From assembly GCF_004138495.1 (NCBI RefSeq), contig NZ_ML142853.1, forward strand, positions 152,499-167,715: 15,217 nucleotides of DNA, read 5' to 3'. This stretch comes from Phytoactinopolyspora endophytica (lineage in GTDB: Bacteria > Actinomycetota > Actinomycetes > Jiangellales > Jiangellaceae). Below the pieces are notes generated by a model. It did not search any database. It saw only the letters and a program-made list of their open reading frames with translations, and was not told where the DNA came from. Shown in pieces: positions 3,273 to 15,188 of this stretch; positions within the stretch are counted from its first letter, which is position 1; each line of letters starts with the position of its first letter. The translations under genes were made by a program, and so were the position numbers.

Positions 3273-4016
3273 TCACCACGCAACGGGGCCAAGCCGATCG
3301 ATGAAGATCCCGGTCGGTCCGTCGGCGTCGCTCATCGCCAGTTCGACGATCGAGTCGGTGCCCTCGGTGACCGTCAGCTCGCCGGTGTGGTTGTTCATGT
3401 CGGTGGCAACGCTTTTGCGGTTTGCGATCTCTCCAGGGGCCACGATATTAAATTTGATCTTCGGGAGCGCCTGAGCGTACCGGACGGTGATCATGTTCAG
3501 AGCCGCCTTCGATGAGCTGTAGGCGAGCTCGTGGATCTTCGAGAAAGGCTGCTCTGGGTCGGTCACGACCGCGAAGGAGCCGCCACCGCTGGACACCATC
3601 ACCACCCGTGGATGGTCCGCCGCCTGCAGCAACGGAAGGAACGCACGCGTGACCCTGATCGGTCCGTACACGTTGGTGTGGTAGACGGAATGAATTTCGT
3701 CAACCGTCGCGTCTGCAGGCGCTACAACGTTTCCGGTCGCGCCGGCGTTGTTGATCAACACGTCCAGCCGGTCGGTGTGCTCCCGAACGAGCCGTACAGC
3801 GCCGGTCACCGACTCGTCCGAGGTCACGTCCAGCGGGACCATGACCACGCTCGCGCCACCGTCAGTCAGCTTGTCGGCAGCTTCCCGTCCTCGACCTACA
3901 TCACGCGAGCCGAGAAAGATCGTCCAGCCCTGTTCCCCGAGCCGGCGGGCTGCCTCAAAACCAAGTCCTTTGTTGCCTCCGGTGATCAACACCGAGGTCT
4001 GCTCCGAGTTCGTCAT
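3273..4016 (-). CDS. Short-chain dehydrogenase/reductase (SDR), probable ECF41 target
   Basis: A 247-aa classical SDR from ATG 4014-4016. The cofactor motif TGGNKGLG is at residues 12-19, NNAG at 89-92, the serine region VSSGGGS at 141-147, and catalytic Y166-S-S-S-K170. The C-terminus GPTGIFIDRLGPVAW is typical of a bacterial SDR subgroup usually annotated as NAD(P)-dependent oxidoreductases. Residues 204-211 (about EIANRKSV) look like a short insertion after the APG turn compared with the usual PG-x-ATD pattern. The frame could start 18 codons earlier at GTG 4070, but a near-perfect ECF41-type promoter (4026-4052) lies inside that extension, so 4016 is the better start. No good ribosome site precedes it, in keeping with a leaderless transcript. 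The substrate is unknown. Confidence 0.88.
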   Translation of the reverse strand: MTNSEQTSVLITGGNKGLGFEAARRLGEQGWTIFLGSRDVGRGREAADKLTDGGASVVMVPLDVTSDESVTGAVRLVREHTDRLDVLINNAGATGNVVAPADATVDEIHSVYHTNVYGPIRVTRAFLPLLQAADHPRVVMVSSGGGSFAVVTDPEQPFSKIHELAYSSSKAALNMITVRYAQALPKIKFNIVAPGEIANRKSVATDMNNHTGELTVTEGTDSIVELAMSDADGPTGIFIDRLGPVAW

Positions 4017-4025
4017 GCACTCTAA

Positions 4026-4052
4026 GACGACACACCCCCCTCGGCTGTGACA
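4026..4052 (-). promoter_or_regulatory. ECF41-type promoter upstream of the SDR gene
   Basis: Read on the minus strand, TGTCACA (4052-4046) is followed by exactly 16 bases and then CGTC (4029-4026). This matches at every defined position the consensus reported for ECF41-group sigma factors (TGTCACA-N16-CGTC). An ECF41 sigma gene lies at 13233-14156. Only 9 bases separate CGTC from the ATG at 4016, so transcription should begin at or very near the start codon. Recognition by this particular sigma factor is inferred. Confidence 0.75.
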
Positions 4053-4092
4053 CGGCTTGAGCGACGACACAACCGGGGACCTGTTGTCTCTT

Positions 4093-4274: not shown

Positions 4275-6982
<2,708 letters not shown>

Positions 6983-10765: not shown

Positions 10766-10792
10766 TGTAACAGAAAACAGGGCTGTCTCGTC
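10766..10792 (+). promoter_or_regulatory. ECF41-type promoter upstream of epimerase/SnoaL/CMD genes
   Basis: TGTAACA (10766-10772), a 16-base spacer, then CGTC (10789-10792). This matches the reported ECF41 consensus TGTCACA-N16-CGTC with a single mismatch at the fourth base of the -35. The expected start of transcription is around 10798-10800. A GTG at 10800 would then be a leaderless start; the alternative ATG 10837 with ribosome site GGAAGG (10823-10828) would have a leader of about 38 bases. Confidence 0.7.
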
Positions 10793-10799
10793 GACAGGT

Positions 10800-11759
10800 G
10801 TGAGAGCCAAATTTCTGGAACCGGAAGGTGACGATCATGCGGGTTTCGTGGCGGGCGGGACTGGGGTGGTAGGGCGGCATCTGGTGCCACAGCTGGTGGC
10901 TCGGGGTCATGAGGTGACGGCTACCGCGACAAGCCCGGGAAGGTTGGGCTTGCTGAGGCAGATGGGCGCCGAGGCGGTTGTGATGGACGGGCTGGATGCG
11001 TCGTCGGTCGACGAGGCGGTGACGAAGGCCCGTCCGGACGCTATCGCGCACGAGATGACAGCCATCGGCGCCAAAGCCGACATGAAGCACATGGACCGGT
11101 GGTTCGCTACCACCAATCGGCTGCGCACCGAGGGGACGGACCACCTACTGGCCGCCGCCGAGGCGAGTGGGGTGTCCAACGTTGTTGCGCAGAGCTACGC
11201 GGGCTGGAACGGCATCCGAGAGGGCGGCTGGGTCAAGACCGAGGACGACCCGGTGGACCTGTGGGAGGGGACGATCGCGCACTCGATTATGGCAGCGGCG
11301 CATTACGTCGAGGACGTGGTCGTCAAGGCGGGTGGTGCGGCGCTGCGGTTCGGCTGGCTGTACGGGCCGGGCGCTTCCGACGGCGTCGTCGAGCCCGTGC
11401 GCAAGCGGCAGTTCCCCGTCGTCGGGGGCGGCACCGGCCACACGTCGTGGGTGCATCTCCACGACGCGGCGAGCGCGACTGTCCTCGCCGTGGAGCAGCA
11501 GGCCAAGGGCGTGTTCAACATCGTTGACGACGAACCGGCCGCCGCCAACGTATGGCTGCCATATCTGGCCGAGGCTGTGGGCGCGAAACCGCCGTTGAAG
11601 GTCCCGTCGTGGCTCGCCGGGCCTCTCGCCGGGAACGCGGTGGTGGGACTGATGACCGAGGGGCGTGGCTTCTCCAACGCCAAGGCCAAGCGTGAGCTCG
11701 GCTGGCAGTTGCAATACCCCTCGTGGCGCCAGGGGTTCAGAGAAAGCCTGACGTCTTGA
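10800..11759 (+). CDS. NAD-dependent epimerase/dehydratase (extended SDR), probable N-terminal frameshift
   Basis: An atypical extended SDR, about 319 aa from GTG 10800. FVAGGTGVVGRHLVPQLVARGHEVTAT is the Rossmann GxxGxxG start. WFATTNRLRTEGTDHLLAAA, QSYAGWNG, RFGWLYGPGASD, VRKRQFPVVGGGTGHTSWVH and FNIVDDEPA are shared almost word for word with the epimerase at 14184-15188. Relatives begin MRVFVAG. Here GGAAGG and ATG 10837 are well placed, but ATG-CGG-GTT is followed by one base too few, so the ATG frame stops after 11 codons while the body is read from an upstream-open frame. Either the gene uses GTG 10800 (7 bases after the promoter's CGTC) or the start is a one-base deletion or sequencing error. 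Epimerases are one of the three classic ECF41-linked enzyme types. Substrate unknown. Confidence 0.82.
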   Translation: MRAKFLEPEGDDHAGFVAGGTGVVGRHLVPQLVARGHEVTATATSPGRLGLLRQMGAEAVVMDGLDASSVDEAVTKARPDAIAHEMTAIGAKADMKHMDRWFATTNRLRTEGTDHLLAAAEASGVSNVVAQSYAGWNGIREGGWVKTEDDPVDLWEGTIAHSIMAAAHYVEDVVVKAGGAALRFGWLYGPGASDGVVEPVRKRQFPVVGGGTGHTSWVHLHDAASATVLAVEQQAKGVFNIVDDEPAAANVWLPYLAEAVGAKPPLKVPSWLAGPLAGNAVVGLMTEGRGFSNAKAKRELGWQLQYPSWRQGFRESLTS

Positions 11760-13232: not shown

Positions 13233-14156
13233 CTATTGAGGCCGTGTTTGCCGCATCAGCGCGTCCATGTCGGCGAGCGGTCCGAGGTGGCGAAGCTTGT
13301 CGGGGTTGATCACGGACCGCACGGTCTGGACGGCGCCGTCGCTCACATCGAGGGCGAGGATGTGGATGAGCGCTCCGTCGGCGTCGACGACGAATGCGCC
13401 CGCTTGGCCGTTGATCTCATGCGGCTCGATCCGGCCGCCCACCTGCCGAATGGTCTGACCGATCCCGGCGAGCAGCCGCGCGACGCGGACAGTTCCGCTG
13501 ATCGGGCGCATCCATTGGGGAGCCTTGCCGCCTCCATCACCGACGACGCTGATATCGGTGGCGAGCACGTTGATGAGGCCGTCGACGTCGCCCTGAGTGA
13601 TGGCGGCGAGGAAGCGCTGGCTGAGCTTGTCCCGCTCGGACGAAGCGACGTCGAAGCGCGGCTTCTCGGACTCGACGTGGCGTCGAGCGCGAAGCGCTAG
13701 CTGACGGCAGTTCAGCGGCGTCTTACCGACGATCTTGGCTATGTCGTCGTAGCTGTAGTCGAAGATGTCGTGCAGCAGATAGACGGCCCGCTCGACAGGA
13801 TTGAGCCGTTCGAGCAGGAGAAGGAAGGCCATCGACACCGAGTCGGCCAGCTCGGCATGATGGGCGGGATCGTCGTCGGTGAGCAGTGGCTCCGGCAGCC
13901 ACTGCCCGACGTAGGTTTCGCGGCGTACCCGCGCCGAGCGCAGGTGATCGATGGCCAGCCGAGTGACCACCGCCGACAGATACGCCTTGGGTGACTCGAC
14001 CACCGAGCCGTCGGTTTGGGCACGCAGATAGCGCACGAAGCCTTCCTGGACGATGTCCTCGGCGTCGCTGACGCTGCCCAGCATCCGATAGGCGATGGAA
14101 AACAACAGAGGGGACAGCGAGTCGACAAGCTGAGCTGTCGAGTCGTCATGCGTCAT
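13233..14156 (-). CDS. sigJ: ECF41-group RNA polymerase sigma factor (SigJ-like) with SnoaL-like C-terminal domain
   Basis: A 307-aa extracytoplasmic-function sigma factor. Region 2 spans about residues 10-78 (LLFSIAYRMLGSVSDAEDIVQEGF), the linker has WLPEPL at 86-91, and region 4 lies at about 110-162 (LNPVERAVYLLHDIFDYSYDDIAKIVGKT). A SnoaL-like C-terminal extension follows, carrying D207-GGG-K211 and N284-P-D-K-L288. These two motifs define ECF41, whose members have no separate anti-sigma factor; the fused domain tunes activity instead. The start ATG 14156 has GAAGGG (14165-14170) 8 bases upstream. It lies 27 bases after the epimerase gene on the same strand, so the two are probably one operon. 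Two ECF41-type promoters occur elsewhere in the window. The inducing signal is not evident. The symbol is by resemblance to mycobacterial SigJ. Confidence 0.92.
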   Translation of the reverse strand: MTHDDSTAQLVDSLSPLLFSIAYRMLGSVSDAEDIVQEGFVRYLRAQTDGSVVESPKAYLSAVVTRLAIDHLRSARVRRETYVGQWLPEPLLTDDDPAHHAELADSVSMAFLLLLERLNPVERAVYLLHDIFDYSYDDIAKIVGKTPLNCRQLALRARRHVESEKPRFDVASSERDKLSQRFLAAITQGDVDGLINVLATDISVVGDGGGKAPQWMRPISGTVRVARLLAGIGQTIRQVGGRIEPHEINGQAGAFVVDADGALIHILALDVSDGAVQTVRSVINPDKLRHLGPLADMDALMRQTRPQ

Positions 14157-14183: not shown

Positions 14184-15188
14184 TCATTGCTGCCTGGGCT
14201 GTTGAAGTGGGATGTTGCCTGAGCCGTTGTCTGGATCGTGGGTGTCGGTGGGTAGCCGCGCGTCGGTGAGTGCATGCCGGAATCCGTCGCGCCAGCTGCT
14301 CCAGGCCGGTCGCCAGTCGAGCTCGCGCTTGGCCTTCTCGTTCGAGGCGCCGCGGGCTTCGGTGGACCACTGCACGGTGGGTGTTCCCGCGAGCAGCCGA
14401 CCAACCCAAGACGGCACGCGCATCGGCCGCTTGGCGCCGACGCTCGTGGCCAGATGCGGCAGCCAGTCCGCGACCGCGGCTGGGTCGTCGTCGACGATGT
14501 TGTAGACACCGGGCTCGCCGCGTTCCAAGGCCGCGACGGTCGCGGCGGCCGCGTCGTCGAGGTGGATCCACGACCAGATGCCGCGCCCGCGACCGATGAT
14601 GGGGAATTGCCGCTTGCGGATGAGCTCCACCATCGAGTCCGAGGCGCCAGGTCCGTAGAAGTTGCCGTAGCGCAGCACAATGCCATGAAGCGGTGCGTTG
14701 GTCACGGCTCTCTCGAGGAACTGGATGGCGGCCATGGACTCTCGCTGGGCTGCGGCTGGTTCCGGGTCGAGCTGGTCGTCTTCGGTCTTGATCGATCCAC
14801 CCGTGCGAGCATTGTTCCACCCGGTATAGCTCTGGATGATGAACCGGCCGACCCCGGCCGCTCGTGCGGCGGCCAGCAGATGCTCGGTTCCTTCGGTGCG
14901 CAGCCGGTTGGTGGTGGCGAACCAGCGGTCGAAGTGTTTCAGGTCCGACTTGCCGCCGAGCGCCGTCATCTGGTGAACGATCGCGTCGGGCTTGGCACGT
15001 ACGACGGCCTCGCCGACGGCCACACCATCGAGTCCGTCGACCACGACGGGCTCAACTCCGGCGGCACGCAGCGCTCCTGCGCGGTCGGGGTTGCGCACGG
15101 TTGCCGTGACCTGGTGGCCACGAGCCGTCAGCTGCGGCACGAGCCGTCTGCCCAGTGCACCGCTTGCTCCTGCTACGAATACACGCAT
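14184..15188 (-). CDS. NAD-dependent epimerase/dehydratase (extended SDR), co-operonic with ECF41 sigma gene
   Basis: A 334-aa protein starting MRVFVAGASGALG, with the cofactor motif G7-A-S-G10-A-L-G13. It shares long segments with the epimerase at 10800-11759 (HFDRWFATTNRLRTEGTEHLLAAA, QSYTGWNNA, YGPGASDSMVELIRKRQFPI, YNIVDDDPAAVADWLPHLA), so the two are paralogues. The classical YxxxK pair is not obvious, as is common in this atypical SDR group. The last 25 or so residues (LPTDTHDPDNGSGNIPLQQP) form a polar tail absent from the paralogue. ATG 15186-15188 follows a purine-rich ribosome site (AGAGAGGGA, about 15196-15204). The promoter lies beyond the window edge. It precedes the sigma gene in the same direction, the classic ECF41-epimerase arrangement. 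Substrate unknown. Confidence 0.9.
   Translation of the reverse strand: MRVFVAGASGALGRRLVPQLTARGHQVTATVRNPDRAGALRAAGVEPVVVDGLDGVAVGEAVVRAKPDAIVHQMTALGGKSDLKHFDRWFATTNRLRTEGTEHLLAAARAAGVGRFIIQSYTGWNNARTGGSIKTEDDQLDPEPAAAQRESMAAIQFLERAVTNAPLHGIVLRYGNFYGPGASDSMVELIRKRQFPIIGRGRGIWSWIHLDDAAAATVAALERGEPGVYNIVDDDPAAVADWLPHLATSVGAKRPMRVPSWVGRLLAGTPTVQWSTEARGASNEKAKRELDWRPAWSSWRDGFRHALTDARLPTDTHDPDNGSGNIPLQQPRQQ

Follow-up and report, generated by a model that had tools for sequence, protein, structure and literature searches.

A conserved ECF41-class promoter before an orphan short-chain dehydrogenase gene of Phytoactinopolyspora endophytica and a candidate leaderless class of ECF41 promoters

In the stretch of Phytoactinopolyspora endophytica DNA analyzed here (15,217 nt, henceforth the window), a short-chain dehydrogenase/reductase (SDR) gene is directly preceded by an exact and conserved match to the promoter consensus of the ECF41 sigma factors, and comparison with its orthologs suggests that it is a usual ECF41 partner gene that stands apart from its sigma gene in this host. 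The account that we consider probable as a whole is as follows. The 27-bp element would work as an ECF41-class promoter, with a transcript that begins on the SDR ATG or no more than two bases from it, so that the mRNA has no leader or almost none. In Nonomuraea-like actinobacteria, one ECF41 clade would have the SDR family as an ordinary partner; in the host, the gene and its promoter would have come to stand alone, probably after a horizontal transfer, and the factor most likely to read the promoter would be a member of that clade encoded on another contig (C3:170918-171760). Three points are new here: a candidate class of leaderless ECF41 promoters, an orphan target that has kept its promoter, and a palindrome beside the -35 element in most of the orthologs.

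In the portions of the literature available, ECF41 factors are said to control a single neighboring gene, and the transcripts that were mapped have leaders. The available portion of Wecke et al. 2012 (PMC3426412) gives the consensus TGTCACA-N16(+/-1)-CGTC upstream of the COE genes and reports mapped leaders of 22/23 nt with a ribosome site in two species. The system in the window shares with these promoters, as presented in that portion, the motif, a target that is an NAD(P)-type redox enzyme and, in many relatives, linkage to the sigma gene. It differs in that the target is a classical adh_short enzyme with only a weak Epimerase match, in that it is unlinked in the window, and in that its ATG stands 9 nt after the -10 element in place of the 22/23-nt leader and ribosome site.

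The element lies on the minus strand at 4052-4026 and is made up of the -35 element TGTCACA (4046-4052), the 16-nt spacer GCCGAGGGGGGTGTGT (4030-4045) and the -10 element CGTC (4026-4029), with both elements matching the consensus exactly. The 9-nt stretch TTAGAGTGC (4017-4025), which holds no usable Shine-Dalgarno sequence, separates CGTC from the ATG at 4016-4014. The site agrees with the ECF41 definition (-35 TGTCACA, -10 CGTC, spacer 16 +/- 1) and is the sole exact TGTCACA-N16-CGTC match within the window, just where the original prediction had placed it, on the minus strand and 9 bases before the SDR ATG. The accompanying estimate, 0.007 matches expected if all four bases are equally frequent, is correct as arithmetic (2 x 15217 / 4^11); in dinucleotide shuffles the number of chance matches per window comes to 0.05 for five spacings together and about 0.01 for one. 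A scan of the whole host genome (G000, 7.6 Mb in 64 contigs, with the window on contig C5; L and G numbers are our labels for loci and genomes), which had been proposed as a check, yielded 14 exact matches at N15-17 (two at N15, 11 at N16 and one at N17) versus one for the reversed pattern used as a control. Six of the 11 N16 sites (L004, L005, L007, L008, L013 and L014) precede an ECF41-like sigma gene or an epimerase gene adjoining one. The extended motif TGTCACAG-N14-TCGTC matches exactly at three sites, namely the SDR and two ECF41-linked epimerases; with one mismatch allowed it gives nine matches versus six in the control and is therefore a weak regulon finder.

The SDR gene (3273-4016, minus strand) encodes a protein of 247 amino acids, the best Pfam domain of which is adh_short (PF00106, 125 bits), with Epimerase (PF01370) also matched at 24.9 bits (cut-off 20.9). 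Sequence matches in the PDB include salutaridine, menthone and isopiperitenone reductases. The oxidoreductase Pfam list shown for COE targets in the available portion of PMC3426412 does not contain adh_short PF00106. A scan of GTDB genomes recovered 19 loci, 17 of which are close SDR orthologs with 81-91% identity (measured for L067 over 96 residues only); the two remaining loci, only 26-28% identical, were set aside. Two more copies from the same genomes (L100 and L101) bring the set to 19 orthologs in 16 other genomes, all with at least 81% amino acid identity. Their hosts are mostly Nonomuraea, along with Thermocatellispora, Sphaerisporangium, [Actinomadura] parvosata, one Streptomyces record and one Chloroflexota MAG. 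Within the order of the host, no ortholog was found at an E-value of 1e-115 in the 21 other genomes (the single hit among 22 being the host itself). In a smaller set of five genomes from the genus or order, three, the host among them, have a match at 1e-40, but the two others are only 49-51% identical. That the host alone among 22 genomes of its order has the SDR at 1e-115 or better suggests a horizontal gain. Divergent from the SDR gene, at 4275-6982, are genes for a FUR-family regulator (PF01475) and then a KatG-like catalase-peroxidase (by reading).

The ECF41 motif has been retained before most of these orthologs. It is exact (N16 or N17) in 12 of 19, 9-10 nt before the ATG, and near-exact in four more at 8-9 nt (one mismatch in L052, L057 and L101, two in L059). 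This agrees with what the original prediction had expected of orthologous SDR genes, and the DNA further upstream is unrelated. In the set of 16 N16 members, comprising 15 orthologs and the window, with the three motif-less orthologs and the N17 ortholog left out, mean pairwise identity is 0.92 in the -35 element, 0.65 in the spacer and 0.28 in the DNA 45-145 bp upstream of the -35; CGTC was the alignment anchor, so its own identity carries no independent weight. Four-fold sites of the SDR gene itself have a pairwise identity of 0.76 (14 sequences), which is below the -35 and above the spacer. The distance from the -10 to the ATG is 8, 9 or 10 nt in all 16 motif-bearing orthologs, and because its length varies in this way the intervening stretch is not coding. 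We take the SDR site, on this pattern of conservation, to be a real, conserved ECF41-class promoter. The three orthologs in which the motif is missing have different start contexts: in L054 the ATG lies within TAATG after GGTGAGGA, in L067 GGAGG stands directly before the ATG, and in L065 there is no ATG at the aligned start and one three bases on. Given these contexts, the three copies may be expressed via upstream genes or ribosome sites.

Conserved gene neighborhoods tie the SDR to the sigma factors themselves. Nine of the 19 orthologs (L053, L055, L056, L060-L064 and L100) have an ECF41 gene no more than 3 kb away, the one beside L061 being a shorter match of 290 bits; no ECF41 gene was seen in the flanks examined (about 4-10 kb) of the other ten. 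These genomes hold 4-27 ECF41 genes each, which puts chance linkage at 1-2% per gene, and linkage in nine of 19 has a P of about 4e-11 if the loci are independent. Since it is linked in nine of 19 orthologs, the SDR appears to be a usual ECF41 partner orphaned here, and not the novel, distal kind of target as which it had been put forward. As for the small dispersed regulon that went with that idea, distal ECF41 targets have a precedent, and such a regulon is conceivable. The precedent is Mycobacterium tuberculosis SigJ, an ECF41-type factor that acts on sigI (PMC4821874); this is likewise an unlinked gene, but the target is another sigma gene, and the available portion of that source makes no leaderless claim. 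At two loci (L100:4189-4234 and G032:C1:5417072-5417112) the SDR and ECF41 genes are divergent and the sigma side also has an exact ECF41 motif; here a single factor may serve the two genes.

The host genome encodes 15 matches to TIGR02957 above 190 bits, of which five are over the curated cut-off, so the motif alone cannot point to the nearest ECF41. That nearest gene, at 13233-14156 on the minus strand of the window (TIGR02957, 354 bits; cut-off 323), has its near end 9.2 kb from the SDR site, in keeping with the 9 kb first estimated. We compared ECF41 trees of 56, 80 and 99 sequences; the 16 ortholog-bearing genomes have 259 ECF41 matches in all. The SDR-linked sigma factors of G023, G024, G026, G027, G031, G032 (two) and G037 fall in one clade together with L015, the paralog on contig C3 of the host (C3:170918-171760). 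With L081 included, this clade has a FastTree support of 1.0 in the 56- and 99-sequence trees and an ultrafast bootstrap of 100 in the 80-sequence tree; without L081 the values are 0.57 (56 sequences) and 95 (80 sequences), and L015 is weakly placed inside it (bootstrap 40, 80 sequences). The window ECF41 is sister to this main clade and not inside it (0.99, 99 and 0.98 in the three trees). The SDR-linked factors of G033 and G034 fall into a different group (0.79, 97 and 0.80), and both genomes also hold clade members elsewhere (L280 and L289). In G023 the clade sigma is 2.8 kb away from another SDR copy, L190, which is cut by a contig end and is not among the 19 orthologs.

Region 4 of the sigma factors gives a similar picture, with L015 being 83-91% identical to five SDR-linked clade members and the window factor 54-56%. 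In the same region L015 is 74% identical to L081, whose genome has an unlinked SDR, and the region 4 of L064, from the other group, is equally far from L015 and the window factor (56 and 57%). Among the matches listed, which reach down to about 298 bits (full-length clade members scoring at least 342), 11 of 13 genomes with a main-clade member also have the exact motif, versus none of three without one; of the latter, G025 and G035 have no motif and G030 has two decayed copies. The Fisher P of 0.018 for this association comes from a test on 'clade or linked' and ignores relatedness; for the clade alone, before further sampling of G033 and G034, it was 0.24.

The window sigma factor has probable sites of its own. 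The sequence TGTAACA-N16-CGTC at 10766-10792 (plus strand) is a probable promoter of an epimerase-to-CMD cluster, the first gene of which encodes an NAD-dependent epimerase (10838-11759, plus strand, exact start uncertain). A second NAD-dependent epimerase (14184-15188, minus strand) has TGTAAC-N17-CGTC at C5:167758-167784, just outside the window. These two sites, which flank the sigma cluster, share TGTAAC-N12-TGTCTCGTC and are the only ones with TGTAAC among the 43 matches listed (4 in the control) for the 22 genomes of the order. The 10766 site is thus the likelier target of the window sigma factor. The natural-looking ATG of the first epimerase, at 10838-10860, is out of frame with the rest (compare the paralog at 15188), and either a later start is used or an indel is present. 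Clade membership, region 4 and the TGTAAC at the window factor's own sites together favor L015 as the SDR regulator; the promoter is most likely read by this factor on C3, the ECF41 at 9 kb being the less likely candidate, and cross-recognition among ECF41 paralogs is possible.

Leaderless transcripts, in which the start codon lies at or next to the 5' end and no Shine-Dalgarno sequence is present, occur in actinobacteria such as M. tuberculosis. Those have been mapped at the RNA level, whereas the SDR case is deduced from promoter geometry and is tied to one alternative sigma family. In Sinorhizobium meliloti, the start of the SMb20029-rpoE9 operon, an ECF41 target, has been mapped 9 nt after TGTCACA-N16-CGTC (PMC3616915, available portion), and the promoter string given in the available portion of PMC6180224 ends, by our reading, on the ninth base after CGTC. 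With the same motif and spacing, the mapped start of that operon falls where the start codon of the SDR stands; its single adjacent target is a carboxymuconolactone decarboxylase, and the available portions of PMC3616915 and PMC6180224 do not describe it as leaderless. Since the S. meliloti start is 9 nt after the motif, a gap of 8 nt would be exactly leaderless and one of 9 nt would leave at most 1-2 bases. The SDR promoter, with 8-10 nt in the 16 motif-bearing orthologs and no Shine-Dalgarno sequence, has no room for a leader; the SDR transcript is expected to start within 2 nt of the ATG, and leaderless translation of the SDR is likely. The original suggestion of leaderless translation is in this way supported by the geometry, namely the 9-nt gap, the lack of a usable Shine-Dalgarno sequence and a wider class of promoters with gaps of 8-9 nt.

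This class emerged from a survey of TGTCACA-N16/17-CGTC-N3..33-ATG in 17 genomes (the 16 SDR genomes and the host), which gave 112 matches versus eight in the control. The 13 SDR matches have gaps of 9 nt (12) and 10 nt (one). The non-SDR matches show a bimodal distance from CGTC to ATG, with 9, 5, 12, 10 and 4 at gaps of 6, 7, 8, 9 and 10 nt, only four in total at 17-24 nt and 35 at 25-33 nt, many of the last having visible GGAGG-like sites. The 22 non-SDR matches at 8-9 nt compare with 5.3 expected from other gaps (P 5e-8), a P value that is overstated because many of the 22 are homologous (seven NmrA-type and five ECF41 genes). We then read 39 of the non-SDR sites with an ATG at 6-10 nt, leaving out a fortieth beside a cytochrome b gene. 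By this reading the ATG opens a real gene in all 12 cases at 8 nt and eight of ten at 9 nt (20 of 22 together), versus at most four of 17 at 6, 7 and 10 nt. Of the 20 genes, seven are of the NmrA type and five encode ECF41 factors; the others are those for two epimerases, two flavoenzymes, two small membrane proteins (one of them DoxX-like) and a hydrolase, together with the SDR copy L190. A Pfam run on nine of them, plus L197 from the class-wide sample, found families in nine of the ten (NmrA/NAD_binding_10, Epimerase, sigma-70, Pyr_redox_2, Amino_oxidase, Abhydrolase and DoxX_2, with SnoaL_2 and the CMD of L197 below cut-off); no Pfam family was matched in L178.

Sampling beyond these genomes gave a weaker signal. 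A class-wide sample of 69 genomes had 69 matches versus 16 in the control, and the 54 sites outside G000 place seven of 59 ATGs at 8-9 nt, with gaps of 0-4 nt holding 20; the 8-9-nt excess has a P of 0.012 against gaps of 11-24 nt and 0.07 against all other gaps. The five class-wide ATGs at 8 nt open frames of 84-257 amino acids, read as CMD, NmrA or DnaJ-like. A phylum-wide sample of 296 genomes, with nine matches (one being the window's own) versus one in the control, is too thin. The 8-9-nt class is thus distinct among the Nonomuraea-like genomes and no more than suggested beyond them. In four genomes the sigma gene of a single ECF41 lineage (L166, L169, L184 and L188) has its start codon 9 nt after an exact motif, and leaderless autoregulation is likely for it.

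A second element accompanies the promoter in many relatives. The consensus of CRP/FNR-type sites is TGTGA-N6-TCACA, and a palindrome of this sequence, with 9-10 of ten bases, is present in 11 of 17 SDR promoter sequences versus 0.03 expected; it resembles a CRP-type site. It ends 2-3 nt before the -35 in ten sequences; in L060 the distance is 13 nt, larger by roughly a helical turn. The window falls short of the TGTGA-N6-TCACA sequence, having only a decayed copy at 4056-4071 (minus strand) with seven of ten half-site bases, equaled by 23 of 200 shuffles. Loss of the palindrome in the window may have uncoupled the SDR from a second control.

Other explanations have to be weighed against this account. 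The original proposal has the window ECF41 controlling the distal SDR within a small local regulon, and it gains from this sigma gene being the nearest one and, at a bootstrap of 99, the sister of the main SDR-linked clade. We nonetheless find it unlikely, as the factor lies outside the SDR-linked clade, the two sites flanking its own cluster read TGTAAC and not TGTCAC, and its region 4 is only 54-57% identical to those of the six SDR-linked sigmas compared, most of which group with L015. A site conserved by recent common descent only, which would be a functionless relic in the window, transferred without its sigma gene, would fit the want of an ortholog at this identity in the 21 other genomes of the order, the lack of an adjacent ECF41 gene and the decayed palindrome. 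We judge it quite unlikely in view of the -35 being more conserved than four-fold sites and the spacer less, the exactness of the window copy and the presence of a suitable clade member in the host genome.

It seems distinctly improbable that the SDR has a leadered transcript starting further upstream without ECF41, from a housekeeping promoter or under a regulator binding the CRP-like palindrome. Although the palindrome abuts the -35 in most of the 17 sequences, the window has only a decayed copy, and L053, L057, L062 and L066 lack it altogether while keeping the ECF41 motif (with one mismatch in L057); moreover, there is no ribosome site before the ATG, and the distance is 8-10 nt throughout. 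A chance match, finally, is hardly credible: a few exact N16 matches are expected per genome, at the shuffle rate of about 0.01 per 15 kb, but the presence of the motif in place in 16 of 19 orthologs rules this out. We therefore retain the reading of a working ECF41 promoter with a leaderless SDR mRNA, belonging to an orphaned partner gene and probably read by the C3 factor.

More generally, actinobacterial ECF41s might run a strictly leaderless promoter class, of which we found no description in the literature searched, with the start on the A of an ATG 8-9 nt after CGTC. It would serve several gene families (SDR, NmrA, epimerase, flavoenzyme, DoxX-like and hydrolase) and their own sigma genes, and would form a compact module that is horizontally mobile with its gene and adoptable by a resident paralogous ECF41. 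For this proposal we regard the balance as even. The ECF41 promoter stays with the SDR even where the sigma gene is elsewhere, and the sharp 8-9-nt class suggests that many ECF41 promoters in these genomes are laid out for leaderless translation. The 8-9-nt rule would offer a simple guide to start sites and to pairing paralogous ECF41s with their targets, and a target gene may outlive its linked regulator by using a paralog.

L011 and L216, from two genera of the same family, each have an ECF41-type site with a gene behind it that reads as DnaJ-domain-like, its ATG being 8 nt after CGTC in L216; this gene is a possible non-redox ECF41 target. On contig C3 of the host, an exact ECF41-type site (C3:173583-173609; L006, L194) lies 42 nt before a cytochrome b gene, which is QcrB-like by reading and convergent with the C3 ECF41 gene.
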